This document shows positions 4,411 through 62,179 of a stretch of DNA of 64,000 nucleotides, piece by piece (within the stretch, counting starts at the first letter, position 1; every line of letters starts with the position of its first letter). Location: contig JAGBJI010000001.1 of the NCBI GenBank assembly GCA_017934545.1, positions 62,001 through 126,000 on the forward strand, written 5' to 3'. A program made the position numbers and the translations under genes. Below the pieces are notes generated by a model that worked only from the letters and a program-made list of their open reading frames with translations, was not told the origin of the DNA and made no database searches. Source of the stretch: Bacteroidales bacterium (GTDB lineage: Bacteria; Bacteroidota; Bacteroidia; Bacteroidales; P3).

Positions 4411-4493
4411 TTTTGAACCGTCCGAAATACAATTTCAGACCGTCCGAAATACAGTTTTGGACGGTTCAAAAGTTGGTTTTGGACGGTTCAAAA
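4411..4493. repeat. 22-nt-pitch palindromic array, core GGACGGTTC (4 units)
   Basis: Four 17-nt units start at 4411, 4433, 4455 and 4477, exactly 22 nt apart. Units 3 and 4 are identical (TTTTGGACGGTTCAAAA). Unit 1 is their reverse complement with one mismatch, and unit 2 is a more diverged inverted copy. The array is flanked on both sides by the word TTCAGAAAAGAAA (4395-4407 and 4503-4515). It lies in the 349-nt gap between two divergent genes, so it is not placed as a terminator. Apart from the two promoters the rest of the gap is featureless. Confidence 0.8.
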
Positions 4494-4582
4494 CAAAACG
4501 GATTCAGAAAAGAAAAATTTAACTTCGGATTTTACCGAAATTTTTTGTGATTACAAGCAAATGCGTTGTGACAAAAAAGTAA

Positions 4583-4590
4583 TATTTTTG
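4583..4590 (+). promoter_or_regulatory. -7 element before the radical SAM gene
   Basis: TATTTTTG followed by CAC, matching TAnnTTTG, about 48 nt before the start codon. No TTG lies at the ideal 19-nt distance, so the -33 element is weak. Confidence 0.45.
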
Positions 4591-4637
4591 CACTTTGAAA
4601 GTTATTAATAATGTATAAACAATAAAATAAAGTAATC

Positions 4638-5405
4638 ATGCTTTTTGAAAACATAGTAGTGGGACCTATACATTCACGCCGTTTGGGTACGTCTTTGGGT
4701 GTAAATGTTTTACCTACTGAAAAAAAATATTGTTCGTTCAACTGCATTTACTGCGAATGCGGTTGGAACGAAGTGGACACTAAAGTCAAAGTTCCGTTCA
4801 ACAGCAGGGAGAAAATATTTTCCGCCTTGCAGCAATGGTGCAAGACTACCGATACGCAGCAACGCCGTGCGGTTGACTCCATAACCTTTTCGGGCAACGG
4901 CGAACCTACGCTCCACCCCGATATATTGCATATCGTTGAAGATGTTATCAGTTTGAGAAACGAGTATATGCCGCAGGCCAAAGTTACAATATTGACCAAC
5001 AGCACTACGTTGGACAAAGAAGATGTTTGGAAGGCATTGCACCTTATTGACAACCCGCTTTTGAAGATAGATGCAGGCACCAAGCGGATGTACAATTTGA
5101 TTTCCAAACCCGTAAGCACGGATTTTCAAACCATAAAAGACAATATAATACGGTTCGGAAGCGATTGCGTTATTCAGACAATGCTTTTGAGGGGCGAAAA
5201 CGACGGACAGATTATTGACAATACCACCGATGAGGAGTTCAATCTGTACTTGGATACGGTCAAACGCACTTCTCCGCGTGAAGTGATGTTGTATTCGCTG
5301 GACCGTATACCCCCTGCAAAAAATCTTGTCAAGGTTTCAAAACAGGAGTTGGAGCAATATGCACAAAAGATACGTGCATTGGGTATAAAGGCGACGGCAT
5401 ATTGA
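4638..5405 (+). CDS. Radical SAM protein (COG0731-like)
   Basis: 255 residues. Residues about 32-41 read CSFNCIYCEC, the CxxxCxxC cluster that binds a 4Fe-4S centre and S-adenosylmethionine, preceded by the conserved GPIHSRRLGTSLGVNVLP. SFSGNGEPTLHPD supplies the GGE-like SAM-contact motif. It is cytoplasmic. Relatives are annotated only as Fe-S oxidoreductases related to the wyosine-synthesis TYW1 fold, so the reaction is unknown. It is the first gene of a plus-strand run with the folate cyclo-ligase (28-nt gap) and lnt. Length is typical for the short family members without extra domains. Confidence 0.8.
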   Translation: MLFENIVVGPIHSRRLGTSLGVNVLPTEKKYCSFNCIYCECGWNEVDTKVKVPFNSREKIFSALQQWCKTTDTQQRRAVDSITFSGNGEPTLHPDILHIVEDVISLRNEYMPQAKVTILTNSTTLDKEDVWKALHLIDNPLLKIDAGTKRMYNLISKPVSTDFQTIKDNIIRFGSDCVIQTMLLRGENDGQIIDNTTDEEFNLYLDTVKRTSPREVMLYSLDRIPPAKNLVKVSKQELEQYAQKIRALGIKATAY

Positions 5406-5433
5406 TTTTGTAAAATCCGAAAAAACATTCCGT

Positions 5434-5991
5434 ATGGATATAAAAGAACAGAAAAAAGAGTTGCGAAGACAGATACGCAAACTCAAAAGCTTATTGACAA
5501 AAGAAGAAAAAGAGATTTTGTCTGCAAAGATTTTTGAAAAATTGGAGCAATGCAACGAGTTCGTTTCTTCGCATTGCGTGCTTATGTATTGGTCTATGGA
5601 CGACGAGGTATGCACGCACGGTTTTGTCAACAAATGGTATAAAGACAAGGTGATACTTTTGCCCTGCGTAGAGGGAGATGATTTGGTTTTGAAGCAATTC
5701 AAAGGCGAGGAAAACATGACCGAGGGCGAGCAGTTCGCAATACCCGAGCCTAAAGGCGAAGCGTTTACCCGTACGGACGAGATAGATTTGATGATAATAC
5801 CCGGTATGGCTTTTGACATGCAGAAAAACCGTATGGGAAGGGGAAGAGGCTTTTATGACAGGTTGTTGCAAACCTGCAATTGTACGAAGATAGCCGTCGG
5901 TTTTGACTGTCAAATGACGCAAAGCGTGCCTGTGGAACCCTTTGACGTGAAGATGGACAAAATAATTACGGACAAACGCACGGCAGAGTAA
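5434..5991 (+). CDS. 5-formyltetrahydrofolate cyclo-ligase family protein
   Basis: 185 residues, the normal family length. It begins with the charged helix KKELRRQIRKLKSLLTKEEK, followed by LMYWSMDDEVCTHGF (substrate region) and, near the C-terminus, DLMIIPGMAFDMQKNRMGRGRGFYDRLL, which matches the signature PGxAFD-xGxRlGyGgGyYDR with the nucleotide-binding glycines. The enzyme uses ATP to turn 5-formyl-THF into 5,10-methenyl-THF in folate one-carbon metabolism. It is followed by lnt after 2 nt, so the two are probably co-transcribed. The glycine-rich loop reads GRGRGFYDR, a slight variation of the usual GYGGGYYDR. Confidence 0.88.
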   Translation: MDIKEQKKELRRQIRKLKSLLTKEEKEILSAKIFEKLEQCNEFVSSHCVLMYWSMDDEVCTHGFVNKWYKDKVILLPCVEGDDLVLKQFKGEENMTEGEQFAIPEPKGEAFTRTDEIDLMIIPGMAFDMQKNRMGRGRGFYDRLLQTCNCTKIAVGFDCQMTQSVPVEPFDVKMDKIITDKRTAE

Positions 5992-5993
5992 AT

Positions 5994-7628
5994 ATGAAGA
6001 AAAAACATTTGTTGTATCTGTCCTTGGTTTCGGGGTTTATCATGTGTTTGGCATGGTATAACACCATGTATTTGGGCTTTTGGATGCTTGCGGCATTGGT
6101 TCCGCTTTTGAAAATGGAAGACCTTATTGCTGCAAACAGGGAAAAACTCAAATTGTCTTCATGTGCTGCGTTTGTATATTCTTATCCTGCGTTTTTTCTT
6201 TATGCGTTTTTCAACACATGGTGGATAAGCAATGCTTCGTTTATAGGATATGTGGTTCCGATAGCCGAAGCTGCGTTTATGAGTGTTGTGTTCCAACTGT
6301 ATTCTTACACCAAAAAAGCGGCGTCAAACAAGACTGCGGCATATTTCTTTCTGTGTTTGTATTGGATAGCGTATGAATATATACAATACACATGGGATAT
6401 GAATTTCCCGTGGCTTAATTTAGGCAATTCTTTTGCACATTGGCCTGTTTTGATACAGTGGTACTCTTTGACGGGAACGGAAGGCGGTTCGCTTTGGATG
6501 CTTTTGAGCAATATATCTATATATATAATGATAAAGCATTGGCCGTTGAAAACCCATGAAAGCAAAAGAAAAAGAATTGTTTTGTACACTTGTTTGCCGT
6601 TGGTAGTGGTTTTGCCCGTGATGTGTTCGCTTATAATGTGGGCAAATTATGAAGACGACAGCACGGAATCTGTAAACGTTGTCTGCGTTCAGCCCAATTT
6701 AGACCCGTACAACGAACAGTATTACATTTCTTCGCAGCAATTGGTCAGACGGATAGTGAATCTGGCGGAAGAAAGCATGGATAAAAATGTTTCTTTCTTG
6801 GTTCTGCCCGAGAGTTGTCTGCAGGAATATGCGTGGGAAGACAGTTTGGAGTTTGCGTATTCAGTCCGTGCCATGAAACAATATGTAAAGAACTACGGCT
6901 CATGCGGACTTATAGCAGGTATGTCCACACGCAGCCTTTTGCCTTACGGAGTTAAAACCCCTGCGGCAAGACCTGTAATGTTTCAAACTGACAGATATTA
7001 TGAGTCATACAACACTGCGTTGTTCGTACCTGACAATGAAGCACAAAATCCTATGCAGTTGCGGCACAAAAGCGTGCTGGTTGTCGGCGTAGAGAAACTT
7101 CCTTTCAAAAAATATCTTCCTTTTGTGGAAAAACTTGCACTTGATATGGGCGGCACGGTAGGAAGTTTGGGTACGGATACGGCTGCAAAGGTTTTTGTTT
7201 CGCAATCGGGCAAAGTTAAAGTGGGTGTTCCTATCTGTTGGGAAAGCATTGACGGCAACTATTCGCGGCAGTTTGTCAACAACGGTGCGGATTTCTTGCA
7301 GATAATCACCAACGTAGGCTGGTGGGGCGACACTCCGGGCTACAAACAATACTTTTACATAAGTGCATTGCGTGCTTTGGAAAACCGCAGATATGTATCC
7401 GTTTGTGCAAATACGGGCTTTACGGGTTTGGTAAATGCACGCGGACAGATAATAAGCAAAAGCGGTTATTGGCAACAGGAGGTTTACAAGTTTAAAGTTC
7501 CGTTGCTAAAGCACAAAACGCTCTTTACCCTTAAAGGAGATATGATAATGAAACCCTTTGCGTTCTTTTCACTGTTGTTAATTGTGTATTCGGTGATAAA
7601 AAATAAGACGCAAAAGCAGAAAAAATGA
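5994..7628 (+). CDS. lnt: Apolipoprotein N-acyltransferase
   Basis: 544 residues. The N-terminal about 210 residues hold six or so membrane segments, and the rest is a periplasmic nitrilase-type domain. Catalytic residues are visible in order: Glu in FLVLPESCLQEYAW (about 270), Lys in LPFKKYLPFVE (about 370) and Cys in VGVPICWESI (about 418). The enzyme adds the third acyl chain to the N-terminal cysteine of lipoproteins in the inner membrane. MNFPWLNLGNSFA in the membrane part is also typical. Third gene of the radical SAM - cyclo-ligase - lnt run; no functional link between the three is evident. Confidence 0.92.
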   Translation: MKKKHLLYLSLVSGFIMCLAWYNTMYLGFWMLAALVPLLKMEDLIAANREKLKLSSCAAFVYSYPAFFLYAFFNTWWISNASFIGYVVPIAEAAFMSVVFQLYSYTKKAASNKTAAYFFLCLYWIAYEYIQYTWDMNFPWLNLGNSFAHWPVLIQWYSLTGTEGGSLWMLLSNISIYIMIKHWPLKTHESKRKRIVLYTCLPLVVVLPVMCSLIMWANYEDDSTESVNVVCVQPNLDPYNEQYYISSQQLVRRIVNLAEESMDKNVSFLVLPESCLQEYAWEDSLEFAYSVRAMKQYVKNYGSCGLIAGMSTRSLLPYGVKTPAARPVMFQTDRYYESYNTALFVPDNEAQNPMQLRHKSVLVVGVEKLPFKKYLPFVEKLALDMGGTVGSLGTDTAAKVFVSQSGKVKVGVPICWESIDGNYSRQFVNNGADFLQIITNVGWWGDTPGYKQYFYISALRALENRRYVSVCANTGFTGLVNARGQIISKSGYWQQEVYKFKVPLLKHKTLFTLKGDMIMKPFAFFSLLLIVYSVIKNKTQKQKK

Positions 7629-7668
7629 AATTATTTTGCTTTTTTATTATCAATTAAATAAAAATTCG

Positions 7669-7676
7669 TATATTTG
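7669..7676 (+). promoter_or_regulatory. -7 element before the fibronectin-type T9SS gene
   Basis: TATATTTG matches TAnnTTTG and lies 27 nt before the ATG at 7704. A TTG at the ideal distance is absent. Confidence 0.45.
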
Positions 7677-7703
7677 CACAGTTTAATATATAATGTAGTT
7701 GTC

Positions 7704-9269
7704 ATGAATAAGAATATATTTGTATTGTTGGCTGTTTTGCTTGCAGCAACGGCGACAATAACGGCACAAAAGCCGACGGTTACAATGACAAGTGTTGACA
7801 GTATCTCTTCACATAAAGCACGTTTTACGGGATATATAGATGATATAACCACAACTTGGAAACCCAAAAAAGTAGGATTTGTTTTAGCACCTAAAAGCAA
7901 TGCCAATGAAGGCGATACAATCAATTATGCGGCAAGTTTTTCGGGAACCAAAGCCAAAGAATTCAGTTATTACACCAAAGCAATTGCCTATTACTTAAAA
8001 CCAAGTACGGAATATTGGATAGTATCTTTTACTACCGATGCGGCAAAAAACAACCCTGATACCGTATTTTCGTCAGACACCTTGACTTTTACTACATTAG
8101 CCGGTGAATGTTTTTATTCCCAACCGGCAGATGCCGAAGATATTTCATTGACAACTGCAAAAGTTTTCGGTCAGGTGACGGGTTCGGGCGATGCAGAAGA
8201 GTTGTCGGGCTACGGATTTGTATATTCAACAACGCCGAACCCTACAGTAAGCACTCCCGGAGCGGGTATCGTTCAGATAAGCGGCAAAGTCAGCAAACCG
8301 CAATACCCTATTACTTTTGACAAAGAGTTGGAAGAATTGAAGTCGGGGGCAACGTATTATTTCAGAGTGTGGGTTGCAGGCAGATATACCAATGTTTATT
8401 ACGATACATGCTACTCCGACCAGAAAATGTTTGTCACTCCGCATGCGTGCGGCAGCACTCCGTTCGGATTGGATACGCTTTCGGTGGGAATAAACGAAGT
8501 GGAACTGACGTGGACTCCTAACATCGGTCAGGTGAAATTTGAAGTTGATTACGGACTTGCAGGACATACTGCCGGCGACGGCACAATCGTTGCCTCGGAT
8601 ACTACATATTTGAAACTGACTAATCTTATGAGCAACCGTTCTTATACGGCTTTTGTCCGTGCGGTGTGCGAAGATTCTTACAGTGAGTGGAGTGAATTGA
8701 AATCATTCCGTACAAGAGAAGCACCGTGTGAGAATATAAGCGGATTGCATGTGAGCGAAGTGACGTATATGACGGCAAAAATAGAGTGGACACCGGGAAC
8801 GTCAAAACAAAACATGTGGGAGGTTATGTGTTTAAAGGCAACACAGGCTTATCCTATCATAGAACAAGGCTATGTTGTCACAGGCGACCCTATGTATTTC
8901 CCTGTCGGCTTGACTCCGAAGACGGAATACAAACTTAAAGTGCGTGCAAAATGTCAGTCGGTGGGACTTTTGAGCAGCGATTGGAGCGAAGAATTGCGTT
9001 TTACTACGAATGCAAACGGTTTGATAGACGCTCAAACGGTAACTGATGCAGTTAAAATTTATCCTAATCCGTCAAACGATGTGATAAACTTTGAAGGCAA
9101 CGCAGCGGAAGTCAGCAAAGTTGAGGTGTATTCATCATTGGGAACATTGATTTATGCTTCGGAATTTTTGCCTGAACAAATAAATCTTTCAAAATACGGA
9201 ACGGGAACATATATTATCCATGTTTATACCGATTACGGCGTGCAAACGGAAAAAGTAATTGTGAAATAA
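7704..9269 (+). CDS. Secreted multi-domain protein with fibronectin-like repeats and T9SS sorting domain
   Basis: 521 residues from the ATG at 7704, chosen because the signal peptide MNKNIFVLLAVLLAATATIT starts there. Several fibronectin type III-like modules follow, each with the typical ...ATVxWT...Y.v.VRA.C... pattern (for example about residues 250-340 and 345-435). The last about 75 residues begin VKIYPNPSNDVINFEG and end YIIHVYTDYGVQTEKVIVK, a classic type-A CTD that directs export by T9SS and cell-surface attachment. No catalytic domain is recognised, so it may be an adhesin or scaffold. It precedes exbB by 47 nt, but with no clear sign of one operon. Confidence 0.82.
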   Translation: MNKNIFVLLAVLLAATATITAQKPTVTMTSVDSISSHKARFTGYIDDITTTWKPKKVGFVLAPKSNANEGDTINYAASFSGTKAKEFSYYTKAIAYYLKPSTEYWIVSFTTDAAKNNPDTVFSSDTLTFTTLAGECFYSQPADAEDISLTTAKVFGQVTGSGDAEELSGYGFVYSTTPNPTVSTPGAGIVQISGKVSKPQYPITFDKELEELKSGATYYFRVWVAGRYTNVYYDTCYSDQKMFVTPHACGSTPFGLDTLSVGINEVELTWTPNIGQVKFEVDYGLAGHTAGDGTIVASDTTYLKLTNLMSNRSYTAFVRAVCEDSYSEWSELKSFRTREAPCENISGLHVSEVTYMTAKIEWTPGTSKQNMWEVMCLKATQAYPIIEQGYVVTGDPMYFPVGLTPKTEYKLKVRAKCQSVGLLSSDWSEELRFTTNANGLIDAQTVTDAVKIYPNPSNDVINFEGNAAEVSKVEVYSSLGTLIYASEFLPEQINLSKYGTGTYIIHVYTDYGVQTEKVIVK

Positions 9270-9316
9270 TAATTCAAAAAATAATCAATAACTAATCAAA
9301 AACAAAGTAACAAAAA

Positions 9317-10003: not shown

Positions 10004-10017
10004 TAGGAAAAACCGCC

Positions 10018-10452
10018 ATGATTCAGAGTAATAATAAAATCAGTCCGCAGTTTAATTCGTCGTCAATGTCGGATTTGGTGTTCTTGTTGCTGATATTTTT
10101 CATGTTGACAAGTACATTGATTTCGCCAAATGCCATAAAAATGCTTTTACCACAGTCAACTTCGGGTCAGACTATGGCAAAACAAAACGTCACGGTGTCC
10201 ATTGACGACTCTCTTACTTATTATGTGGAAAACCAAGCCCAACCTTTGGAAAACATAGAGCCGCTTTTGGAGGCACTGTTGACCGATACACAGGAGGGAA
10301 CCGTTAAACTGCATGCCGACAAAGCCGTTCCGGTTCAATATATTGTCAACATAATAGACGTAGTCAACCACATAAACCAGCGGAACAATACCAAACACAA
10401 AGTAATTCTTGCAACCGAAGCACCGTCAGGGGCAAAAAGTACTTCAAAATAA
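10018..10452 (+). CDS. exbD: ExbD/TolR biopolymer transport protein
   Basis: 144 residues. One N-terminal membrane segment (about residues 18-38) follows FNSSSMSDLVFLLLIFFMLT, which contains the essential Asp of ExbD (MSDLVF). A periplasmic domain follows with YYVENQAQPLENIEPLLEAL and KLHADKAVPVQYIVNIIDVV, typical of ExbD/TolR. It pairs with the ExbB channel to use the proton gradient. Translationally close to both neighbours. Length is normal. Confidence 0.88.
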   Translation: MIQSNNKISPQFNSSSMSDLVFLLLIFFMLTSTLISPNAIKMLLPQSTSGQTMAKQNVTVSIDDSLTYYVENQAQPLENIEPLLEALLTDTQEGTVKLHADKAVPVQYIVNIIDVVNHINQRNNTKHKVILATEAPSGAKSTSK

Positions 10453-10455
10453 GCG

Positions 10456-11199: not shown

Positions 11200-11216
11200 T
11201 TACAAGCAAAAAATCA

Positions 11217-11799: not shown

Positions 11800-11807
11800 C
11801 CGCTGTT

Positions 11808-15225: not shown

Positions 15226-15340
15226 TTTTTGCCCTTTGTGAAAGTAAGTCGGAAAAAATCACATTTTTTGCCTCAAAAAAATAGTTTTTTTGATGTAAAA
15301 AAACACATTTTTTCCGCATTAAAGTGCGAAGGGGCAAAAA
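15226..15340. repeat. 22-nt-pitch A/T array with outer inverted repeat, copy A
   Basis: Three 17-nt units (A-tract, short core, T-tract) are centred at 15261, 15283 and 15305. They lie inside an imperfect outer inverted repeat, TTTTTGCCC (15226-15234) with GGGGCAAAAA (15331-15340), whose centre is 15283, the middle unit. Sequence similarity to copies B and C extends further out to about 15188 and 15380. The array lies in the 653-nt gap between divergent genes (ferritin-like and ppiD). Confidence 0.8.
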
Positions 15341-23752: not shown

Positions 23753-23880
23753 TTATTTCTTTGTCAGAATTGTAAATATTTTGTTTGAAATTTTGCCCTG
23801 CACAGCAAAATAAATTTCTTTTCCGCAAAAAATCATTTTTTATCTTATATAAATGAATCCTTTTTACTGTTTAATTTTCT

Positions 23881-23961
23881 GCAAGACGGTTTTGTAATGC
23901 TTGCAAAACCGTCTTGCAAGAGTTGCAAAACCGTTTTGCAGATATTACAAAACGGTTTTGC
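23881..23961. repeat. 22-nt-pitch palindromic array, core CAAAACCGTTTTG (4 units)
   Basis: Four near-palindromic 15-nt units, such as GCAAAACCGTTTTGC (23925-23939), are centred at 23888, 23910, 23932 and 23954, exactly 22 nt apart. It lies in the 593-nt gap between the divergent MFS and secDF genes, which is otherwise AT-rich with only the two promoters recognised. Confidence 0.8.
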
Positions 23962-24250
23962 AGACTTGCGGTTTTTGAAAACAAAAAATTTAAGTGCAAT
24001 AATGCTGATTTTAAATGTAGAAACAACGGCGGAAATTTGAACACTGCAAAGGGAAAAAGCAAAAAATGTTTTTCTCTTTTTAACACATGTTTTTGCGGGT
24101 TCAGAACACAAAGATGTGAATTGATATACCAATTTATAAATTTCATGTTTGCAGGTGATTATTTCAAAATTTTAATTATTGAAAAATGCGTTGAAATCAT
24201 TTTTTTTGAAAAAAAACCGATTTAAATTATGCAGTTAGCAAATAAACTCC

Positions 24251-39470: not shown

Positions 39471-39593
39471 ATTCTGACTCCGCCCTTTTTATACAGCAAT
39501 ATTTTTACACTTTTTTTAGCAATAAATAAGTGTTTTCTATTAAAGAATAGCGTTTATTGTTGGATAAAAAATCTATATTCAGAAAACGTTTCA

Positions 39594-39677
39594 AAAAAAC
39601 ATATGTATTTGCGAAAAAAAACATATGAATTTTAAACAAAAAACATATGTTTTTTTCTTCAAAAACATATGTTTTTT
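39594..39677. repeat. 22-nt-pitch palindromic array, core CATATG, copy 1 (4 units)
   Basis: CATATG occurs at 39600, 39622, 39644 and 39666, exactly 22 nt apart, each inside A-tract and T-tract flanks. Downstream lies TTCAGAAAAGAA (39687-39698), the word that also flanks the GGACGGTTC array. The location is between convergent genes (DUF4230 and the LuxR-type regulator). Confidence 0.85.
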
Positions 39678-39728
39678 TATTTTCTTTTCAGAAAAGAATT
39701 TTGTTAGGTAAGTTTGCGGGCTGACAGG

Positions 39729-43430: not shown

Positions 43431-43462
43431 TTGCGGTAAAAGAAAAAATATTTGTAACTTTG
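43431..43462 (+). promoter_or_regulatory. Promoter of the B12-riboswitch transcript
   Basis: TTG (43431-43433), 21 nt, then TAACTTTG (43455-43462). The predicted start lies about 5 nt before the first riboswitch helix. Confidence 0.65.
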
Positions 43463-43472
43463 CAATCTCAAA

Positions 43473-43640
43473 TACAGGTTTTTGCAAGGCAAAATTAATA
43501 GGGAATCCGGTGAAAATCCGGAACTATACCCGTAGCTGTGAGTTTCAAAAAAAGAATACAACATTCCAAAGCCATTGCTTGACAAAGTGAGAAGGCCGTT
43601 GTATTTGGAAACAAGTCAGAAGACCTGCCTGTTGTTTGAC
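43473..43640 (+). ncRNA. Adenosylcobalamin (B12) riboswitch
   Basis: The core reads GGGAATCCGGTGAAAATCCG, then ACTATACCCGTAGCTGTGAG, and ends with AAGTCAGAAGACCTGCC, all matching the B12 box pattern. ACAGG (43474-43478) pairs with CCTGT to close the first helix. Downstream, GTAAAGAATCGTAA (43641-43654) can pair with TTCTTTAC (43702-43709) or TTACGAT (43722-43728), giving competing hairpins that could act as the expression switch. The controlled gene starts at 43766. The gap of 428 nt holds only this, the promoter and the feo terminator. Confidence 0.9.
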
Positions 43641-43765
43641 GTAAAGAATCGTAACTTTCGGGTATTGAAGATGCGGTTGCACAATTTTATTGCCATAGCA
43701 TTTCTTTACAAAAGAAAAAGATTACGATATGTTTTTATTTATTAACACTTAAAAAAGTTACAAAC

Positions 43766-45927: not shown

Positions 45928-46968
45928 TTAAATTCTGCCGCCGCAGATAAAGGAAAGAAAAGCAGGACATTTCTTTTTCATCAAAGTAAACAGACCTGTC
46001 AAAAAAGCGGTACACGCAACAACGGGAAAGACATACATAATCAAAAATCCCAAACTGTTGTCTGGTACAAATTTTATCAAAGGCCGTGTGAATGCGTATA
46101 CAATTACTGGCGGGTGTGCGGCAAAAAGAAAGAACAAAGATGATTTCAGCACGGGGTTGGCGGCAATGCGCCGGCGTTCAATCATAAGTGACGTCAGGTA
46201 AAGTACGGAAACAACGCCTGCAAATATACATAAACAGTGCAGATAGGTGTTGTTTGACGCCGTGTGTACACTTTTGTAAGGTGCGATATTGACTGCGGTG
46301 TCGGCAATAAGCAGCAAAGCAAAAGCAATCACAGGCCAAAATTTCAACTTCCTTACTTGCTCAACCATGTTTTTGTTTGTAACGGAGAAATACGCCCCCA
46401 AACAGAAAAAGAACAGCGAGTTGTCAGCCCAAAAACCCGAATCCGACAGCCACAAAAGCCCGAGAAGGAAGACAAAATAAGATTTAAACTTTCGTATCAG
46501 CACATACAACACGGGCGAAACCAATGCAAATATCATCAAATCGCATATGTACCAAAACTGAATGGCGGGTGGAAACGGAAATCCTTTTATCTGCGAAAGT
46601 ATTTCTCCGTTTACGCCTTTTGCAGCAGCGATTTTCAAAACCAACATCAGCAGATTCCAAAACAAATAGGGGATAAGCAGGGTTTTTATGCGGGAGCGAA
46701 GTTTTTGTTTGTAAACTGCGGGCGTAAAACCGTCGGCGGAATTTTTTACAAAGAAGAAAAAATAGCCTGAAAACAGGAAAAACGTCGGTACGGCTATGCG
46801 TGACAGTATTTGTGAGAAGAAAAAGTAAATACCGTAGGCTGCATGGGAAGCGTTTAATGACATCAAAGAGTAGTGGTCAACGTGAATAAGCATGACCAGC
46901 ACTATAAGCGGAAAACGTAACCAATCTACAGTTTGGGATTGCAACCGATAGTAAAACTCTTTTTCCAT
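45928..46968 (-). CDS. Acyltransferase-3 family membrane protein
   Basis: 346 residues from the ATG at 46968; the ATG at 46986 inside a CATATG repeat is an alternative. About ten hydrophobic segments. VDWLRFPLIVLVMLIHVDHY (first segment with the His of the family) and FFFSQILSRIAVPTFFLFSG are the usual starts of acyltransferase-3 proteins, which O-acylate glycans or lipids in the inner membrane. The acceptor is unknown. It lies downstream of pdxJ, but the repeat array separates the two, so co-transcription is uncertain. It faces the DUF4465 gene. Confidence 0.8.
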   Translation of the reverse strand: MEKEFYYRLQSQTVDWLRFPLIVLVMLIHVDHYSLMSLNASHAAYGIYFFFSQILSRIAVPTFFLFSGYFFFFVKNSADGFTPAVYKQKLRSRIKTLLIPYLFWNLLMLVLKIAAAKGVNGEILSQIKGFPFPPAIQFWYICDLMIFALVSPVLYVLIRKFKSYFVFLLGLLWLSDSGFWADNSLFFFCLGAYFSVTNKNMVEQVRKLKFWPVIAFALLLIADTAVNIAPYKSVHTASNNTYLHCLCIFAGVVSVLYLTSLMIERRRIAANPVLKSSLFFLFAAHPPVIVYAFTRPLIKFVPDNSLGFLIMYVFPVVACTAFLTGLFTLMKKKCPAFLSFICGGRI

Positions 46969-46977
46969 TGCATTTTC

Positions 46978-47061
46978 AAAATACATATGTTTTTCAATCA
47001 AAAAACATATGTATTTTTGTTCAAAAACATATGTTTTTTATAAAAAATACATATGTATTTT
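46978..47061. repeat. 22-nt-pitch palindromic array, core CATATG, copy 2 (4 units)
   Basis: CATATG occurs at 46984, 47006, 47028 and 47050, exactly 22 nt apart, with A- and T-tract flanks as in the copy at 39.6 kb. It lies between two minus-strand genes and overlaps an alternative start codon of the acyltransferase gene. Confidence 0.85.
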
Positions 47062-47083
47062 AATTTTACTTTCAGATTTTGTT

Positions 47084-50694: not shown

Positions 50695-50809
50695 TTTTCG
50701 CCCCTTGCGAAAGTAATCTCAAAAAAAACACATTTTTTGCATTAAAAAATGTGGTTTTTTGCCACAAAAAATCTATTTTTTTTGAAACTCTTTTCTGAAA
50801 GGGCAAAAA
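50695..50809. repeat. 22-nt-pitch A/T array with outer inverted repeat, copy B
   Basis: Three 17-nt units are centred at 50730, 50752 and 50774. The outer repeat TTTTCGCCC (50695-50703) with GGGCAAAAA (50801-50809) is centred at 50752, the middle unit. It lies in the 516-nt gap between the divergent cstA and glmS genes, which holds nothing else besides the promoters. Confidence 0.8.
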
Positions 50810-55126: not shown

Positions 55127-55236
55127 TTTTTGCCCTTTCTGAATCTAATCTCAAAAAAAATAGGTTTTTTCACTGAAAAAATGTGGTTTTTTAGGGCGAA
55201 AAATCAGATTTTTTCCGAATTAAAATGCGAAGGGGC
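55127..55236. repeat. 22-nt-pitch A/T array with outer inverted repeat, copy C
   Basis: Three units are centred at 55162, 55184 and 55206. The outer GCCC (55132-55135) and GGGC (55233-55236) are centred at 55184, the middle unit. The left flank resembles copy A closely for more than 30 nt (both contain TGCCCTGCGGC). It lies between two minus-strand genes. Confidence 0.75.
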
Positions 55237-55991: not shown

Positions 55992-56049
55992 CAAAACAAT
56001 TGTTTGATTTTTTGCGGAAAGAAAAATAAAGAAAATAAATATAATCACT

Positions 56050-58473
56050 ATGAAAAAAGTAATCAGTATGGTATCTGCACTCGCCACGGCAACGACACTG
56101 TTTGCCAGTGAGGCGGATTTGGTTATCCCTGATGCTATCCATGAATTCGGATTTTTGCATTGGGGATTTTTAGTCACGGTACTCGGATTCGTTTTCGGTA
56201 TGTACCATTTTATCAAAACCAAAAAACTTCCCGTACACAAAAAAATGTTGGAAATAGGGGAAGTAATCTACAAAACATGTTCAACATATCTTAAACAACA
56301 AGGCAAGTTTCTTGCCACACTGTTCATATTTATAGGTGTAATAGTGGCGGTTTACTTCGGAGTGTTGGCAGAGAACGCTGCAGGAGTGTCGGGCGTGATT
56401 TTGATTTTGTTTTGGACGGTTGTAGGAATTTTGGGTTCGTATTCAGTGGCGTATTACGGAATACGGATGAACACCTTTGCCAATGCACGTATGGCGTTTG
56501 CCTCTTTGAGAAGACAACCTTTGAAACTGCTGAACATTCCTCTGAATGCAGGAATGTCAATCGGGGTTATGCTTGTGTGCGTTGAGTTGTTTTTGATGTT
56601 GGTTATACTTTTGTGTATGCCGTCCCATCTTGCAGGAAGTTGTTTTATAGGTTTTGCAATCGGAGAATCATTAGGTGCAAGTGCATTGCGTATTGCGGGC
56701 GGAATATTCACTAAAATTGCCGACATAGGTTCCGACCTTATGAAAGTAGTGTTTAAAATCGGCGAAGACGACCCGCGTAATCCGGGGGTTATTGCCGATT
56801 GTACGGGCGACAATGCAGGGGATTCCATCGGTCCGACGGCTGACGGATTTGAAACATACGGCGTAACGGGAGTGGCTCTTGTGTCTTTCATCCTGTTAGC
56901 GGTAGGAAGCCCGGATTTACAAAAGGATTTGTTGGTTTGGATATTCTCCATGCGAATACTGATGGTGATAACGTCGGTGGTAGCATTTTGGATTAACAAC
57001 GCAATATCAAAAGCCCGTTACAGCAAAGCTGAAGATTTGGATTTTGAAAAGCCGTTGACCAACCTTATATGGATAGCTTCCGTTTTGAGTATCGCAGTTA
57101 CGTTTGTCGTTTCTTACTTCCAATTGGGACATTTGGGCAACGGATTGTGGTGTTTGTTGGCTTCAATCATTTCATTGGGAACTATAGGAGCTGCAGTTAT
57201 ACCCGAGATAACAAAAGTCTTCACTTCGCCGCATTCAGGCCATGTTCAGGAGGTCGTAAAGGCATCACACCACGGCGGAGCATCGCTTAACATATTGTCA
57301 GGCTTCGTTACGGGAAATTTCTCGGGCTTTTGGACGGGATTGATATTCGTCATACTTATGTTTTTGGCCTATGCGTTGAGTGTGGATATTGATTCGGCGA
57401 TGATGGCTTATCCTGCTATTTTTGCATTCGGCTTGGTTGCCTTCGGAATGTTAGGAATGGGACCTGTCACAATAGCCGTTGATTCTTACGGACCTGTAAC
57501 CGACAACGCCCAAAGCGTATATGAGTTGTCTTTGATAGAAGACGAACCCAACAAGGATGAAGAGATAAAACAACAGTTCGGCTTTACACCGGATTGGGAG
57601 AAGAGTAAATACTATTTGGAACAGAACGACGGAGCGGGCAATACGTTCAAAGCAACGGCAAAACCCGTTTTGATAGGAACGGCGGTAGTCGGAGCGACGA
57701 CGATGATATTTTCAATAATATTGGTTATAAAGAACGTACTCGGAGTTGACCCTTCGGAGATATTGAATCTTCTTAACCCTTACACAATATTAGGATTTAT
57801 TTTGGGAGGATGCGTCATTTATTGGTTCACCGGTGCAAGTACACAAGCCGTAACCGTAGGAGCATACCGTGCAGTTGCGTTTATCAAAGAGCATATCAAA
57901 CTTGACCCTAACGCACCTAAAAAAGCCGACGAAAACTCCAGCGTTGAAGTTGTTAAAATATGTACCCAATACGCCCAAAAGGGAATGTGGAATATCTTTT
58001 TGGCAATCTTCTTCTTTGCCTTGGGATTTGCCTGCTTGGCATCGCCTGCAGGTATCGGCGGAAGCAACGCCGTGAGCCTGTTTGTGTCGTATTTGATTTC
58101 CATAGCCATGTTCGGCTTGTTCCAAGCCGTGTTTATGGCTAACGCAGGAGGAAGTTGGGACAACAGCAAGAAAGTCGTTGAGGTTGATTTGGCATTGAAA
58201 GGCACACCGTTGCACGATGCGTCGGTTGTAGGCGACACCGTAGGCGACCCGTTCAAAGATACATCGTCGGTTTCTCTTAACCCTATCATCAAGTTCACTA
58301 CATTGTTCGGATTGTTAGCAATGGAGATGGCTATAAGCGAGAGCTTCAGACACTATGCTCCGTATTTCGGCGGCGTGTTTGTGTTGATTGCCGTTGTTTT
58401 TGTGTGGCGTTCGTTCTACAAGATGAGAATCAACGACACGGTGGACAACATCGCAAAAAGTTATAAGAAGTAA
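56050..58473 (+). CDS. hppA: Membrane-bound ion-pumping pyrophosphatase
   Basis: 807 residues, about 15 membrane segments. The catalytic part reads GEDDPRNPGVIADCTGDNAGD (DDPRNP at 240-245), with a second acidic cluster near the C-terminus (GGSWDNSKKVVEV, GDTVGDPFKDTSSVSLNP). It splits pyrophosphate to pump H+ or Na+ across the inner membrane. GNTFKA at residues 530-535 puts Lys534 at the position that is Ala in potassium-dependent forms and Lys in potassium-independent ones, so independence is predicted. The catalytic block is divergent (KIGEDDPRNP instead of AGIPEDDPRNP). Whether it moves H+ or Na+ is not read. Confidence 0.92.
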   Translation: MKKVISMVSALATATTLFASEADLVIPDAIHEFGFLHWGFLVTVLGFVFGMYHFIKTKKLPVHKKMLEIGEVIYKTCSTYLKQQGKFLATLFIFIGVIVAVYFGVLAENAAGVSGVILILFWTVVGILGSYSVAYYGIRMNTFANARMAFASLRRQPLKLLNIPLNAGMSIGVMLVCVELFLMLVILLCMPSHLAGSCFIGFAIGESLGASALRIAGGIFTKIADIGSDLMKVVFKIGEDDPRNPGVIADCTGDNAGDSIGPTADGFETYGVTGVALVSFILLAVGSPDLQKDLLVWIFSMRILMVITSVVAFWINNAISKARYSKAEDLDFEKPLTNLIWIASVLSIAVTFVVSYFQLGHLGNGLWCLLASIISLGTIGAAVIPEITKVFTSPHSGHVQEVVKASHHGGASLNILSGFVTGNFSGFWTGLIFVILMFLAYALSVDIDSAMMAYPAIFAFGLVAFGMLGMGPVTIAVDSYGPVTDNAQSVYELSLIEDEPNKDEEIKQQFGFTPDWEKSKYYLEQNDGAGNTFKATAKPVLIGTAVVGATTMIFSIILVIKNVLGVDPSEILNLLNPYTILGFILGGCVIYWFTGASTQAVTVGAYRAVAFIKEHIKLDPNAPKKADENSSVEVVKICTQYAQKGMWNIFLAIFFFALGFACLASPAGIGGSNAVSLFVSYLISIAMFGLFQAVFMANAGGSWDNSKKVVEVDLALKGTPLHDASVVGDTVGDPFKDTSSVSLNPIIKFTTLFGLLAMEMAISESFRHYAPYFGGVFVLIAVVFVWRSFYKMRINDTVDNIAKSYKK

Positions 58474-58504
58474 ATATTTTTGTTATACGTAATATTTTAT
58501 TCGT

Positions 58505-58540
58505 AAGAGCGGACTTCAGTCCGCTCTTTTTTTATTTTTG
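58505..58540 (+). terminator. Terminator of hppA
   Basis: AAGAGCGGACT (58505-58515) pairs with AGTCCGCTCTT (58518-58528) around a 2-nt loop, followed by a long T-run. Confidence 0.85.
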
Positions 58541-58624
58541 CGGTTTTATTTATACATTATTATAAATATAAATTGAAATAAAATTTCCGCCTTTTGACGT
58601 TTTGTTTTTGCCGAGTGTGAATTG

Positions 58625-58741
58625 ATTTTTGCCGAACGCCGCTTTAGTTCGGAAAAAAGCAGGTTTTTTGTATCAAAAAAAGTGGTTTTTTACCTCAAAA
58701 AACCACTTTTTTTTCACATTAAAGCGGCGTTCGGCAAAAAT
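58625..58741. repeat. 22-nt-pitch A/T array with perfect outer inverted repeat, copy D
   Basis: Three units are centred at 58661, 58683 and 58705. The outer repeat is a perfect 22-bp inverted repeat (58625-58646 with 58720-58741), including TTTTTGCCGAACGCCGC, centred at 58683, the middle unit. The word TTTTTGCCGA also occurs 21 nt earlier (58605). It lies between two plus-strand genes in a 420-nt gap whose first 65 nt hold the hppA terminator; the remainder has no recognised gene or promoter. Confidence 0.85.
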
Positions 58742-58893
58742 CAAATGCGAAACGGCGTTGTTAAATGCAAAAACGGCATTGAAGAAAAAGATGTTTATTT
58801 GCCGCATTTAGTTGTTTATAGGGCATAGGCGGATAATAAAAACGGATAAATTCAGTTTATTTATTATTATAAGCAGATAACACGGAATTTTTT

Positions 58894-61140
58894 ATGAGAT
58901 TATATAAAAGTTTTTTGCTTGCCTTGTGTATTGCCGCAGTGTTTAACGGCCATACGCAGACGTCTTCGGAGTCATCTTCCGTACAAAGAAAAAAGGTGGC
59001 TGTGGTTTTGTCGGGCGGCGGAGCCAAAGGAACGGCACATATAGGTGCGTTGAAAGTCTTGGAGCAGGCGGGCATTCCCATAGACATGATAGTGGGAACG
59101 AGTATGGGTGCGTTGATGGGCGGATTGTACTGCATTGGTTACGATTCGCATATGTTGGATTCGTTGGTTCGTATACAAGATTGGCCTTTTTTGTTGTCCG
59201 ACCGTATTGACCCGATGGACCAAGACATTGTAAACCGCAACAAACAAAACACATATATGCTTTCCCTGTCCGTTAACGACGGTAAGGGAAGAATATCCAT
59301 GGCTCAACCGGGATTTATCAAAGGAAAAAATCTTGCCAACCTGTTTTCGCGTTTGACATTGGGTTACCATGACAGCATAGATTTTAATTTGCTTCCCATA
59401 CCTTTTGCATGCGTTGCCACGGATATGGTCAAATTCAACGAAATAGTGTTCCACAGCGGCAATCTTGCCACTGCCATGCGGGCTTCGATGAGTATTCCCG
59501 CAGTTTTCTCGCCCGTACAGCTTGACACTATGGTACTTGTGGACGGAGGGTTGAGAAACAATTTTCCCGTTGACGTGGCCAAAGCCATGGGAGCGGATAT
59601 TGTCATCGGCGTGACGGTGCAGAACATCAAGGAAAAGACCCCTGATTATTTTAATTCCACTGGTGCGGTCATCAATCAGTTGATGGACGTCAATACGGAG
59701 AATAAACTGTTGGACAATTTGCTGATGACCGATATTTTTATCCGCGTCAACGTTGACGGATATTCGGCTGCAAGTTTCAATTCGGACGCCATAGACACGT
59801 TAATCAACAGAGGAGAAAGAGCGGCAATGCAACAATGGGATGCACTTATGGATTTAAAAAAGGAATTGTCGCTTTCGGACAGCGGCAATGCAGACGGGCA
59901 AAGAGTTGTGCGTAAATACCGGATGATACATCCGCAGACCAAACTGAAGGTAAGCCAAACGGAGTTTAAAAACATAGCATCGGCCGACAAAAAATATTTA
60001 CAGGAAAAGTTCAATCTGCACAAAGGCGGTGTTACAACCGTAGAAGGAGTGGAAAAAGCCGTAACAGCTTTACGCAGCAATTTGTTCTATCAGGATGCAT
60101 CCTACCAGATACATTATCAAAAAGACGGTTACAAGATTTCGCTTGAGAGCGAAGGAAAGAAAGCCGCCCAATTGTTTATGGGCGTACGCTTTGATAACGA
60201 AGAAAAAGTGTCGTTGCAGTTTTGCGGACTTATGCCTTTGCGTATCGTAGTGCCTACCGTGTTGCAGGGAACGGTGCGTTTGGGCAAGCGGAGTATGGGT
60301 AAATTGGAGGCAACTCTCAATCCCTCGTCGTTTGTTCCCGTTTCGCTTGCATATACTTACAGACATCAGGACATAAACGTGTATTATCACGCCAGCAAAG
60401 ACTTCAATCCCGATTACAATCAGCATCAGGTGGAGTTGGGAATATTGAATTACGGTTACAAAAACTTACTTGTGGATTTTTTTGCGAGATGGGACTATTA
60501 TGATTACAAGCAAATACTTATGGGACAGCGGTCGCGTAGTCCCGTAAAGAACGTTTCGCACTTGTTTTCTTACAATGCACGGGTGCATTTTGACAACAGA
60601 AGCAATCCTTATTTCGCCGTACAGGGAGATAAGTATGAAATAAAGTACGGAATGTATACCGACAATCTGTACCAATACAAAAACTCGTCGCCCGTTCATG
60701 TTCTGTCGTTCAATTCCATGAAAATAATTCCGCTTAACCGCAGTTTGGTTTTTGAGCCTATGCTTTACGGAAGAAACGTTTTTAAAAGTAACGCACCCAC
60801 AATACTTCAAAACTGTATCGGAGGTAATTATTTCGCCCACTATATAGAACAGCAGATGCCGTTTGCAGGCATTGACAACGTGGAAGCGGCGGGTAACAGT
60901 TTTTTAGCAGCCGAATTGAACTTCAGACAGCGTATTTTGACCCACAACTATGTGTCTTTGACGGCGGCGGTTGCCCAATCGGCAGATGAAATCAAAGCTT
61001 TGTTTGACGACAGTCCGCTTATCGGCGTAAGATTGTCCTATGCGTACAGTTCGGTTATAGGTCCGGTGGGAGCAAGCATAGGTTTTAGCAACCGTACGCA
61101 CGAACCTTATCTGTTTGTAAACATAGGTTATGAATTTTAA
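58894..61140 (+). CDS. Patatin-like phospholipase with outer-membrane barrel
   Basis: 748 residues. Signal peptide about 1-23. The patatin domain (about 30-330) has the oxyanion motif VVLSGGGAKGTAHIGALK, the nucleophile motif GTSMGALMGG (GxSxG, Ser about residue 70) and the partner Asp in LVDGGLRNNFPVD. A POTRA-like linker and a C-terminal BamA-type barrel (about 400-748, ending LFVNIGYEF with terminal Phe) follow. Such proteins hydrolyse phospholipids and anchor in the outer membrane (type Vd-like). Export of the patatin domain through the barrel is inference. Confidence 0.88.
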   Translation: MRLYKSFLLALCIAAVFNGHTQTSSESSSVQRKKVAVVLSGGGAKGTAHIGALKVLEQAGIPIDMIVGTSMGALMGGLYCIGYDSHMLDSLVRIQDWPFLLSDRIDPMDQDIVNRNKQNTYMLSLSVNDGKGRISMAQPGFIKGKNLANLFSRLTLGYHDSIDFNLLPIPFACVATDMVKFNEIVFHSGNLATAMRASMSIPAVFSPVQLDTMVLVDGGLRNNFPVDVAKAMGADIVIGVTVQNIKEKTPDYFNSTGAVINQLMDVNTENKLLDNLLMTDIFIRVNVDGYSAASFNSDAIDTLINRGERAAMQQWDALMDLKKELSLSDSGNADGQRVVRKYRMIHPQTKLKVSQTEFKNIASADKKYLQEKFNLHKGGVTTVEGVEKAVTALRSNLFYQDASYQIHYQKDGYKISLESEGKKAAQLFMGVRFDNEEKVSLQFCGLMPLRIVVPTVLQGTVRLGKRSMGKLEATLNPSSFVPVSLAYTYRHQDINVYYHASKDFNPDYNQHQVELGILNYGYKNLLVDFFARWDYYDYKQILMGQRSRSPVKNVSHLFSYNARVHFDNRSNPYFAVQGDKYEIKYGMYTDNLYQYKNSSPVHVLSFNSMKIIPLNRSLVFEPMLYGRNVFKSNAPTILQNCIGGNYFAHYIEQQMPFAGIDNVEAAGNSFLAAELNFRQRILTHNYVSLTAAVAQSADEIKALFDDSPLIGVRLSYAYSSVIGPVGASIGFSNRTHEPYLFVNIGYEF

Positions 61141-61172
61141 CGGCGAAAACACTGCAGATAAAAGCCCTTTGA

Positions 61173-61188
61173 GGCAAAACATTTTGCC
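61173..61188. promoter_or_regulatory. Palindrome overlapping the sufC -33 element
   Basis: GGCAAAACATTTTGCC is a palindrome with a 2-nt centre. It overlaps the TTG at 61184-61186 and lies 33 nt after the patatin stop, so it may be an operator, a weak terminator or both. Confidence 0.4.
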
Positions 61189-61213
61189 GTGAGGATTTTT
61201 TGTTATAACTTTG
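61184..61213 (+). promoter_or_regulatory. Promoter of sufC
   Basis: TTG (61184-61186), 19 nt, then TAACTTTG (61206-61213), an exact match, 39 nt before the start codon. Confidence 0.7.
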
Positions 61214-61252
61214 CAAAAGTTTTTTAAGTGATAATTAATAAATTAAAATCAT

Positions 61253-62011
61253 ATGGCTTTACTGGAAATAAATAATCTGCATGTTTCTATCGGCGGCAAA
61301 GAGATATTGAAAGGGCTGAACCTTACTGTAAACAAAGGTGAAATTCACGCTATAATGGGTCCTAACGGCAACGGAAAGAGTACTTTGGCTGCCGTTATCG
61401 CAGGCAACGACAAGTTTACCGTAACCCAAGGCAGTATAACATACAAAGGCATGGATTTGTTGTCAATGAGCGTTGAGCAACGGGCATGCGAAGGAGTTTT
61501 TCTCGGATTTCAATATCCTGTAGAGATACCCGGCGTAAGTATAACCAACTTTATGAAAACCGCAATCAACGAACAACGCAAATACAGAGGCGAAGACCCG
61601 ATAAGTGCGCGCGATTTCTTGGCGTTGATGAAGGAAAAAGAGCAGTATGTTGAACTTTCGTCCACCCTTGCGGGCAGAAGCGTAAACGAGGGCTTCTCCG
61701 GGGGAGAAAAGAAACGCAACGAGATATTTCAGATGGCTATGTTGCAGCCTACGTTGAGTATTTTGGACGAAACGGATTCGGGTTTGGACATAGACGCATT
61801 GCGTATTGTTGCAGGCGGAGTGAACAAAGTGCATACGCAGGACGACGCCGTGATAGTCATAACCCACTATCAAAGACTGTTGGACTACATCGTACCGGAC
61901 ATCGTTGATATTTTGTACGAAGGAAAGATAGTTAAAAGCGGCGGCAAAGAGCTTGCAAAAGTATTGGAAGAAAAAGGATACGATTGGATTCGCAAAGAAT
62001 TGAATCAATAA
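61253..62011 (+). CDS. sufC: Fe-S cluster assembly ATPase SufC
   Basis: 252 residues. Walker A GPNGNGKSTLAAVIAG (about 36-51), the SufC-type signature FSGGEKKRNEIFQMA and Walker B LSILDETDSGLDIDAL are complete, followed by VIVITHYQRLLDY. It is the ATPase of the SufBCD scaffold for building Fe-S clusters in the cytoplasm. The partners sufB and sufD are not adjacent here; the neighbours are the patatin gene and an HU-like gene. It has its own promoter. Confidence 0.95.
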   Translation: MALLEINNLHVSIGGKEILKGLNLTVNKGEIHAIMGPNGNGKSTLAAVIAGNDKFTVTQGSITYKGMDLLSMSVEQRACEGVFLGFQYPVEIPGVSITNFMKTAINEQRKYRGEDPISARDFLALMKEKEQYVELSSTLAGRSVNEGFSGGEKKRNEIFQMAMLQPTLSILDETDSGLDIDALRIVAGGVNKVHTQDDAVIVITHYQRLLDYIVPDIVDILYEGKIVKSGGKELAKVLEEKGYDWIRKELNQ

Positions 62012-62040
62012 CTCACAACAATCAAACGAAATTTCATTTA

Positions 62041-62179
62041 AATTTTGCCGAATGCGGAATCATCCGTTAAAAAACCACTTTTTTTAACCGAAAAAAAGTG
62101 GTTTTTTAAGTAAAAAAAGCAGGTTTTTTGTAATAAAAAAAGTGGTTTTTCCGTTGTTAAAGTGTGAATCGGCAAAAAT
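62041..62179. repeat. 22-nt-pitch A/T array with outer inverted repeat, copy E (4 units)
   Basis: Four units are centred at 62077, 62099, 62121 and 62143. The outer ATTTTGCC (62042-62049) with GGCAAAAAT (62171-62179) is centred at about 62110, the midpoint of the four units. The cores include GTGG, CCAC and GCAGG, as in copy D. It lies between two plus-strand genes (sufC and the HU-like gene). Confidence 0.85.

Follow-up and report, generated by a model that had tools for sequence, protein, structure and literature searches.

The 64,000-nucleotide window analysed here (positions 62001-126000 of contig C5 of G000, a Bacteroidales genome of 2.38 Mb in 14 contigs) carries nine intergenic arrays of short palindromes set 22 bp apart. 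Such arrays are what rises visibly above a broader, faint 21-base pattern, which runs through genes and intergenes alike. The 21-bp period marks intergenes and the synonymous sites of genes, and is on average absent from outgroup genes. Arrays and flanking genes stand in a fixed phase, which is nearly common to the different palindrome families; the patterns are dyad-symmetric, and the arrays are evenly spaced along the G000 chromosome. The register shared by arrays and lattice suggests a protein coat or scaffold leaving its mark in the chromosome sequence. Judging from sequence, the best explanation, held with moderate confidence, would be a dyad-symmetric protein placed at every two helical turns along the chromosome, the arrays being its strongest sites.

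Families and pitch of the arrays

Arrays were searched with a palindrome-chain detector requiring at least three units with at least 6 of 8 complementary pairs, or 7 of 8 in a stricter setting. Over the window and 400 kb more of G000 (464 kb), 64 runs were found at pitch 22, 18 at pitch 21, 15 at 12, 10 at 33 and 8 at 23, every remaining pitch from 13 to 60 giving 0-5 runs; the runs at 21, 12, 33 and 23 are shoulders and half-steps of pitch 22. One of the 64 falls within a predicted gene and is apparently due to chance, and nine are at stretch edges. At the stricter setting the window has three runs at pitch 22; no other pitch from 14 to 44 yields any, and 20 dinucleotide shuffles have no run across that range, which bears out the enrichment over shuffled DNA on which an earlier note on this stretch had made its reading depend. 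From 80 named loci of Bacteroidales, which include close relatives and total 1.59 Mb, came three pitch-22 runs, two of which reside in the closest relative, L063. The spacing of CATATG units is exactly 22 in 63 of 67 neighbour pairs less than 60 bp apart; units made of an A-run and a T-run (124 pairs) have centres 21.5-23.5 bp apart, because the lengths of the runs vary.

The set used for most of the following includes 111 arrays with a score of at least 5.5 on contigs C1, C5 and C7 of G000 (664 kb). Hits in genes were excluded by construction, the exception being the END-only array C1:116200, flagged within a predicted gene and counted among the 111; at score 5, 4 of 123 hits on the three contigs fall in genes. 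In 73 outgroup loci the detector has a background of 0.7 hits per Mb at score 6 and 6.9 at score 5, figures taken before the penalty on pitch 21 was softened, and for this reason a few of the 111 arrays (e.g. C1:89966) may be due to chance. Contig C4 (7442-196855) duplicates C7 (1-189415) over 189 kb. The identity of 99.998% rejects the notion of two strains and marks an assembly redundancy, which may explain the reported 8.1% contamination. C4 was dropped from counts once the duplication was recognised, and is still included in genome-wide pattern-hit counts for G000.

At least six unrelated palindrome families occur in G000, all at a pitch of 21-22 bp. F1 (A5-6 CATATG T5-6) has mostly four units, F2 (A6-N5-T6) mostly three, with cores drawn chiefly from ATAGG, TCACA, TCAGA, CCACT, GCAGG, CCACA and their reverse complements. 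F3 corresponds to GCAAAACCGTTTTGC, F4 to TTTTGGACGGTTCAAAA, and F0 to TTTTC(A/T)GAAAA alone, at pitch 21; rarer families are exemplified by TGGTAAACGATTTACCA and TACCCGGTA with CCCCC. Inspection by eye revealed TTTTC(A/T)GAAAA-like units about 21-22 bp outside the last core unit of many F1-F4 arrays, some copies being without them. Alignment of 32 F2 copies on their centre outlines a symmetric element of about 190 bp, with units at 0, ±22 and ±44, a GCC/GGC motif at ±52, ±73 and ±94, and little conserved in between. Relatives keep the layout with other cores: CATAGG and AGAGT in G009, ACTGT, ACTAT and AGGG in G001, GCCCC in G002. A strict F2 pattern hits 304 times in G000 (duplicated contig included), 63 in G001, 15 in G009, 6 in G002, once in G013 and never in the other nine congeners. 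The reversed control pattern gave 155, 27, 5, 4 and 0 hits in the same five genomes, as expected, since it fits once per three-unit array.

Some single copies deserve mention. In 19 otherwise matching F1 rows from C1, C5 and C7 the first spacer is hypervariable and found in both orientations (GAAACG/CGTTTC, GAAGAA/TTCTTC), as in hairpin-loop inversions. Two near-identical F2 arrays with similar flanks lie 1.9 kb apart in G001 (L265:14142 and 16015, contig C17), probably by local duplication. G014, which belongs to another genus, carries three CCTCGTGAGG palindromes at a 22-bp pitch (L053:6532-6600), and its coding lattice is below 0.003 in the 20 kb sampled.

The lattice and its register with the arrays

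Intergenic DNA has self-identity peaks at a lag of 21 and at multiples of it, as far as 105, in the congeners G001 and G009, in the pooled other congeners (+0.039 at 21) and in other genera of the family (+0.040); in G000 the peaks are at 21, 22, 42-44 and 63. Among intergenes of at least 150 bp, those with z above 3 at lag 21 are 30% in G000, 37% in G001, 35% in G009, 26% in the other congeners, 16% in the family (19 intergenes) and 1.4% in the outgroup. Nine other lags served for comparison. Of these, lag 22 gave 20% in G000; its share was 1.8-5.3% in G001, G009 and the family pool, and the remaining lags gave 0-1.4%.

The same period is found in genes. Third positions of 391 G000 genes have identities of 0.290, 0.286, 0.282, 0.275 and 0.270 at lags 21-105, against 0.248±0.004, and first and second positions gain less than 0.01. 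The per-gene excess has a median of 0.014; it is above 0.03 in 6% of the genes and below -0.03 in none. Faint as it is, the periodicity can be followed along the whole window (1-64000), whose 40 genes score 0.292, 0.279, 0.281 and 0.280 at lags 21, 42, 63 and 84, other multiples of 3 from 9 to 90 giving 0.243-0.264. The relative excess of C and G is comparable to that of A and T, and C and G are patterned by phase. The third-position excess amounts to 0.053 in G009, 0.034 in G001, 0.033 in G016, a member of another genus, and 0.030 in G000; the mean over 74 outgroup loci is 0.0003 (standard deviation 0.0036). Among 21 genomes or loci from the family or its vicinity, mostly small samples, ten reach a z of at least 5 (G009, G001, G016, G000, G010, L062, G008, G004, G002 and G006). 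Two of them fall outside the genus and are small samples as well, L062 (JAISTG010000076.1, Md513_bin13; excess 0.022, z 5.6) and L054, from G016 (0.033, z 8). When synonymous codons were shuffled within genes, so that protein and codon usage stayed the same, the periodicity vanished in six of six genomes (five shuffles each), the excess falling, for instance, from 0.0299 to 0.0009, from 0.0342 to 0.0016 and from 0.0527 to 0.0016. An amphipathic-helix or heptad signal of the encoded proteins is thus rejected as the source, third positions being the carriers of the signal.

The period is close to two turns of B-DNA. The peaks keep to 21n up to n = 13 and 14 in G001 and G009. In G000 they stay at 21n to n = 6, and are found at 21n+3 for n = 11, 12, 13, 14 and 16, a drift which implies a period of about 21.2 bp. 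An independent measure, the strength of the lock to the arrays as a function of the assumed period, is maximal at 21.2 in G000, 21.0 in G001 and 20.9-21.0 in G009, and a comb scan gave 21.02 for both G001 and G009. A period which is non-integer, species-specific and near two helical turns is not expected from codons or tandem duplication.

The third-position composition of genes flanking the arrays depends on the distance from the array centre modulo 21. The phase lock was measured on the 111 G000 arrays and on 46 arrays from G001 and G009 with a score of at least 7, with 25 jitters of up to 10 bp as control. Chi-square values in G000 were 324 against 142±17 at 100-350 bp and 243 against 158±20 at 350-700 bp; in G001 plus G009 they were 304 against 171±17 and 590 against 217±26. 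The corresponding jitter maxima were 179, 202, 205 and 278. Periods of 20, 22 and 23 gave 92-151; those of 20.5 and 21.5 (232-401) are not comparable with whole numbers, because twice as many bins are filled. Gene-side patterns of F1 and F2 arrays correlate at offset 0 (r 0.75; best 0.77, at half a base), and the left and right sides are mirror images at offset 0 (r 0.78 in G000, 0.80 in G001). Moving outwards from the unit centre, the gene pattern of G001 (30 arrays) favours G/C over positions 0-3, then T (4-7) and A (8-9), with a weak G/C preference around 11-13 and A plus some T from 17 to 20. In faint form it roughly follows an array unit through its T-run, its spacer and its A-run.

Array places along the chromosome, in relatives and in the window

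Arrays occupy 106 of the 214 intergenes of at least 100 bp, and no intergene was called twice; since any hit was merged into a better one lying within 150 bp, this means that none holds two arrays more than 150 bp apart. The occupied intergenes are co-directional in 57 of 123 cases, divergent in 33 of 56, convergent in 16 of 35. Gaps between neighbours have a mean of 6.0 kb, a median of 5.2 kb and a coefficient of variation (CV) of 0.52, and random placement gave CVs of 0.77-1.30, none of 4,000 placements being as even. Only 9% of the gaps are shorter than 3 kb, compared to 28-51% under random placement. The result holds for C7 alone, which was not used for discovery (29 arrays; CV 0.51, null 0.86, p 0.001 with one-per-intergene placement), and when an equal number of places is drawn from intergenes of at least 100 bp (CV 0.83 against 0.51 observed, 0 of 4,000 as even). 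The layout of intergenes is therefore rejected by several placement nulls as the cause of the even spacing. Neighbours less than 3 kb apart are found in 5 of 60 pairs from different families and in 5 of 48 pairs from the same family. The sampled part of G000 seems poor in insertion sequences, since among its 497 predicted genes no gene family exceeds two members at more than 40% identity, and only three pairs occur.

Places were compared in relatives at intergenes whose flanking genes are both kept. Three of three intergenes occupied in G000 host an array in G001 as well, two of them from another palindrome family: F3 is matched by the AAACGCCGTTT family (score 5.7, threshold 5.5), F0 by the AAACGCCGTTT family too, and F2 by F2 with other cores. 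Of 16 intergenes (at least 60 bp) called empty in G000, G001 has an array at one, where G000 scores 5.1, just under threshold; one more G001 array lies outside this count, at an intergene only 42 bp long in G000. The contrast (chance 4/969 by hand arithmetic) is only suggestive of a kept place, since occupied intergenes are longer. Arrays at G000-occupied and G000-empty intergenes were 1 of 3 and 0 of 8 in G009, 0 of 1 and 0 of 3 in both RUG093 and G003, and 0 of 2 empty ones in G004. Absence from equivalent places in relatives, which the earlier note would have taken as a refutation, is seen in most comparisons outside G001 and not in G001, a mixed outcome. At a single locus checked against five relatives, the intergene is 593 bp in G000 and 235-456 bp in the relatives, one of which has an array of its own. 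The intergene upstream of secDF was also compared; the arrays visible there on inspection in G008, G010 and G005 have scores under the threshold (1.7, 2.4 and 2.7), and six genomes (G009, G002, G006, G011, G013 and G004) were left out because they matched on the minus strand and the region shown is not upstream of secDF. The named SecDF neighbours are metagenome-assembled genomes, namely RGIG9295 (G001; 91% identity, from water deer rumen), RUG093 (87%), S8M_St_20 (G003; 76%) and Candidatus Onthomorpha (71%).

Within the window the detector returned exactly the nine loci of the earlier note, at 4.4, 15.3, 23.9, 39.6, 47.0, 50.7, 55.2, 58.7 and 62.1 kb. Three of the four divergent intergenes hold an F4 array with four TTTTGGACGGTTCAAAA-type units and TTTCAGAAAA units on the flanks (4408-4497), an F2 array with three A6-N5-T6 units at pitch 22 (15250-15317), and an F3 array with four GCAAAACCGTTTTGC-type units upstream of secDF (23877-23966), where G001 has an array of another family scoring 5.7 against the threshold of 5.5. 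The fourth hosts an F2 array with three units, and glmS at one side (50719-50786). The convergent intergene carries an F1 array with four A5-6 CATATG T5-6 units at pitch 22 (39591-39680). The co-directional ones carry an F1 array with four units between the pdxJ and acyltransferase genes (46975-47064) and three F2 arrays: two with three units (55151-55218, and 58650-58717, with outer arms TTTTTGCCGAACGCCGCTTTA / TAAAGCGGCGTTCGGCAAAAA), and one with four units by eye, three for the detector and 2.8 copies for Tandem Repeats Finder (62069-62150). The tally of four divergent, one convergent and four co-directional places given previously is correct provided that the acyltransferase frame at 45928-47001, overlooked by our crude gene caller, is included. 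That cores differ by locus was equally right, at least four families being represented among the nine. The constancy of the pitch stands for all nine loci, each at 22, and does not extend to the rest of the genome, where some arrays have a pitch of 21. A gene for an HU-related (HU-HIG) protein (62257-62700) lies about 105 bp downstream of the 62.1-kb array. The sole match to Rfam at gathering score over the window is a cobalamin riboswitch at 43460-43646 of the plus strand (RF00174, 108 bits), and the arrays match none of its families.

A proposed nucleoprotein lattice and its alternatives

According to the model that we favour, an abundant dyad-symmetric DNA-binding protein or complex would sit on one face of the DNA every two turns, and give rise to ordered nucleoprotein stretches of some hundreds of bp each. 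Its weak site preference (an A-run, a G/C-containing core, a T-run) would be written into wobble positions; in intergenes, where coding does not interfere, sites could rise to near-perfect tandem palindromes. Arrays, about one per 5-6 kb, would be the strongest sites, used for nucleation or pinning. Judging by the even spacing and by the limit of one array to an intergene, a single strong site every 5 kb would seem enough for such a purpose. The preferred core would plausibly drift between species, so that arrays are rewritten and some places are kept. The dimeric protein lying on one face of the helix, proposed when only the nine arrays were known, is supported by the helical spacing, by the dyad-symmetric patterns, and by the register reaching into adjoining genes. 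A broader formulation, in terms of a bacterial chromatin with a chromosome-wide two-turn lattice and a species-specific dyad code in synonymous sites, condensed into evenly spaced arrays and replaced between species while some array sites stay, is advanced tentatively, its chances being slightly less than even.

Several observations weigh against a protein lattice. Lag 21 is on top, weakly (+0.011), in outgroup intergenes too, and two outgroup loci reach a z of 4 in genes (largest excesses 0.0098 and 0.0077). Of the 21 genomes or loci mentioned above, nine are without the lattice (z at most 1.5 in G003, G012, G018 and L064; excess below 0.003 in RUG093, G005, G014, G023 and L061), and two have it weakly (G013, z 3.4; G011, z 2.7). 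Coherence ends at about 0.7 kb in G001 and 0.7-1 kb in G009, less than the array spacing. The lattice excess is 0.0366 more than 1.5 kb from arrays (882 windows) and 0.0287 within 0.7 kb (312 windows); being at least as strong far from arrays, the lattice cannot have the arrays as sole phase-setters, and the simple hypothesis that it is set by arrays alone is rejected. F3, F4 and F0 arrays taken together fit best one base off (r 0.71, against 0.42 at offset 0). The pitch of 22 in F1 and F2 is at variance, without explanation, with the lattice period of 21.0-21.2, and the comb scan gives 20.9-21.1 for G000, in conflict with 21.2, a value which is unreliable because the scan favours codon-grid lags. 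G001 has fewer arrays for its length, one per 14.5 kb, and their gaps vary more (CV 0.84, 33 gaps), and G009 gaps have a CV of 0.67 (12 gaps), both figures being given with no null. Lastly, no lattice protein emerged from searches for two kinds of candidate. Histone-based chromatin is rejected, the histone fold (PF00808) having no match in 14 genomes of the genus at E 0.001. HU-HIG matches, obtained with a model which also recognises ordinary HU, number 39 in G014, 30 in G002, 16 in G006, 14 in G000 (one doubled via the duplicated contig), 13 in G009 and 2-9 in the other eleven genomes. Copy number does not follow lattice strength over these 16 genomes (G001 has four copies and a strong lattice, G014 has 39 and an excess below 0.003), so that HU-HIG expansion is rejected as the cause; a single member could be the one that forms the lattice.

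Intrinsic curvature alone could be responsible, if selection acted on the bending produced by A- and T-runs every 10.5-11 bp, for nucleoid compaction or supercoiling, with no sequence-specific protein. The A6-N5-T6-N5 layout does set A/T runs 11 bp apart, and a 10-11 bp periodicity of A-tracts, largely at third positions, is described as a "structural code" in PMC4132750, PMC3431218 and PMC3940949. We regard this explanation as unlikely, since the fundamental lag is 21, lags 10 and 11 being outside the 14 largest excesses in all six pools, C and G have a relative excess comparable to that of A and T and are patterned by phase, F3 and F4 keep the pitch without 11-bp phasing of A/T runs (by eye), and F2 cores are mostly drawn from a small set. 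A mutational imprint arising without selection is a poor candidate. According to this hypothesis a bound protein shields DNA at 21-bp intervals from biased mutation, and palindromes are formed by hairpin or template-switch correction. The confinement of the gene signal mainly to third positions and the F1 spacers found in both orientations within one element context (19 rows), as hairpin-loop inversions would give, are in keeping with it. A protein lattice is nonetheless required, and the imprint alone yields neither even spacing nor strict 22-nt arrays of several families.

Mobile elements resembling REP (repetitive extragenic palindromic) sequences or MITEs (miniature inverted-repeat transposable elements) could account for the near-identical F1 copies at distant places, for the accumulation of strict F2 hits in G000 (304, against 63 in G001, 15 in G009 and 0 in nine congeners) and for the symmetry of F2 elements, whose GCC motifs form an inverted tandem; the 21-22 bp repeats would be transposase-binding sites, and target immunity could give even spacing by mutual avoidance. 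Such an origin is improbable all the same. At E 0.001 the Y1 transposase domain (PF01797) is matched in none of the 14 genomes of the genus and in 5 of 14 controls, which leads us to reject a REP/RAYT system. The rve domain (PF00665) has none in G000, three below-cut-off matches being confined to G004, and a Mu-, Tn7- or IS3-type enzyme is likewise rejected, other transposase families not having been searched. No gene family exceeds two members among the 497 predicted genes. F2 copies share no sharp ends: in the eight closest pairs similarity fades outwards from the core (0.97, 0.85, 0.53, 0.31), in a comparison which counts some elements twice, in two registers one base apart. Neighbours of different families are less than 3 kb apart in 5 of 60 cases, against 28-51% of all pairs under random placement, and a coding lattice in phase with the arrays would not be expected. 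A role as bidirectional terminators or chains of RNA hairpins has hardly any credit left. Palindromes made of an A-run, a core and a T-run look like weak hairpins, but divergent, convergent and co-directional intergenes are all occupied, with no enrichment at gene 3' ends and no orientation bias. Intrinsic terminators are rejected on these grounds, in line with the doubt expressed earlier on a terminator function. Hairpin chains, which had also been envisaged, are not favoured, because the register also sits in synonymous sites of adjoining genes (both gene strands pooled) and the arrays have no gene-end bias. Neither structure needs the exact pitch or the in-gene lattice.

Over distances from tens to thousands of bp, the ordering of bacterial nucleoids is still an unsettled matter, and we know of no bacterium whose DNA sequence reveals the register of a nucleoid protein. 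Should the lattice be a protein coat, base-by-base predictions of its footprint, phase, period and domain length could be made from sequence; synonymous codon choice in these species would in part serve as a code for packaging, and a DNA-binding specificity that evolves fast and has thousands of sites would be open to test. Were curvature or mutation the only cause, the described 10-11 bp periodicity would still leave unexplained a 21-bp pattern that is locked in phase between intergenes and wobble positions.

No description of 21- or 22-bp arrays or periodicity was found in open-licence PMC papers. In possible role the nearest relative is the structural code. Chromosome-wide periodicities of 10-11 bp in A and T, mainly at third codon positions, have been read as a packaging code (PMC4132750, PMC3431218, PMC3940949); the expressions "21 bp" and "22 bp" are absent from the main texts of these papers. 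Like the lattice, the structural code is helix-linked, potentially chromosome-wide, mainly carried by third positions and thought to shape the nucleoid, and our shuffles confirm that the lattice is carried by third positions and lost once synonymous codons are permuted. Unlike it, the lattice has a period of two turns (21.0-21.2 bp), with peaks at 21 and its multiples and lags 10 and 11 outside the top 14; it is dyad-symmetric, involves all four bases, keeps its coherence over some hundreds of bp, against approximately 100 bp given in PMC4132750, and is in register with palindrome arrays. Period, symmetry, base use and the array layer thus set the two apart.

The arrays have relatives of their own. 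REP sequences and BIMEs (bacterial interspersed mosaic elements) are short, dispersed intergenic palindromes in high copy, and the arrays are similar in all these respects. They differ from REP/BIME/RAYT systems in the fixed 21-22 bp tandem pitch, in the many unrelated families sharing one layout, and in the lack of a Y1 match in the genus. Plasmid iterons and centromere arrays are tandem sites about 22 bp apart, on one DNA face, for a Rep or ParR-type protein. The arrays share spacing and face, but are many, chromosomal, made of palindromic units and of several families at once. MITEs are small, dispersed and symmetric, as the arrays are; the latter are distinguished by F2 elements without sharp ends, the absence of the two transposase families searched, the even spacing and the coding lattice. 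We take the combination of arrays and lattice to be new in kind, though a strict reader could take it for a variant of helix-linked periodicity.

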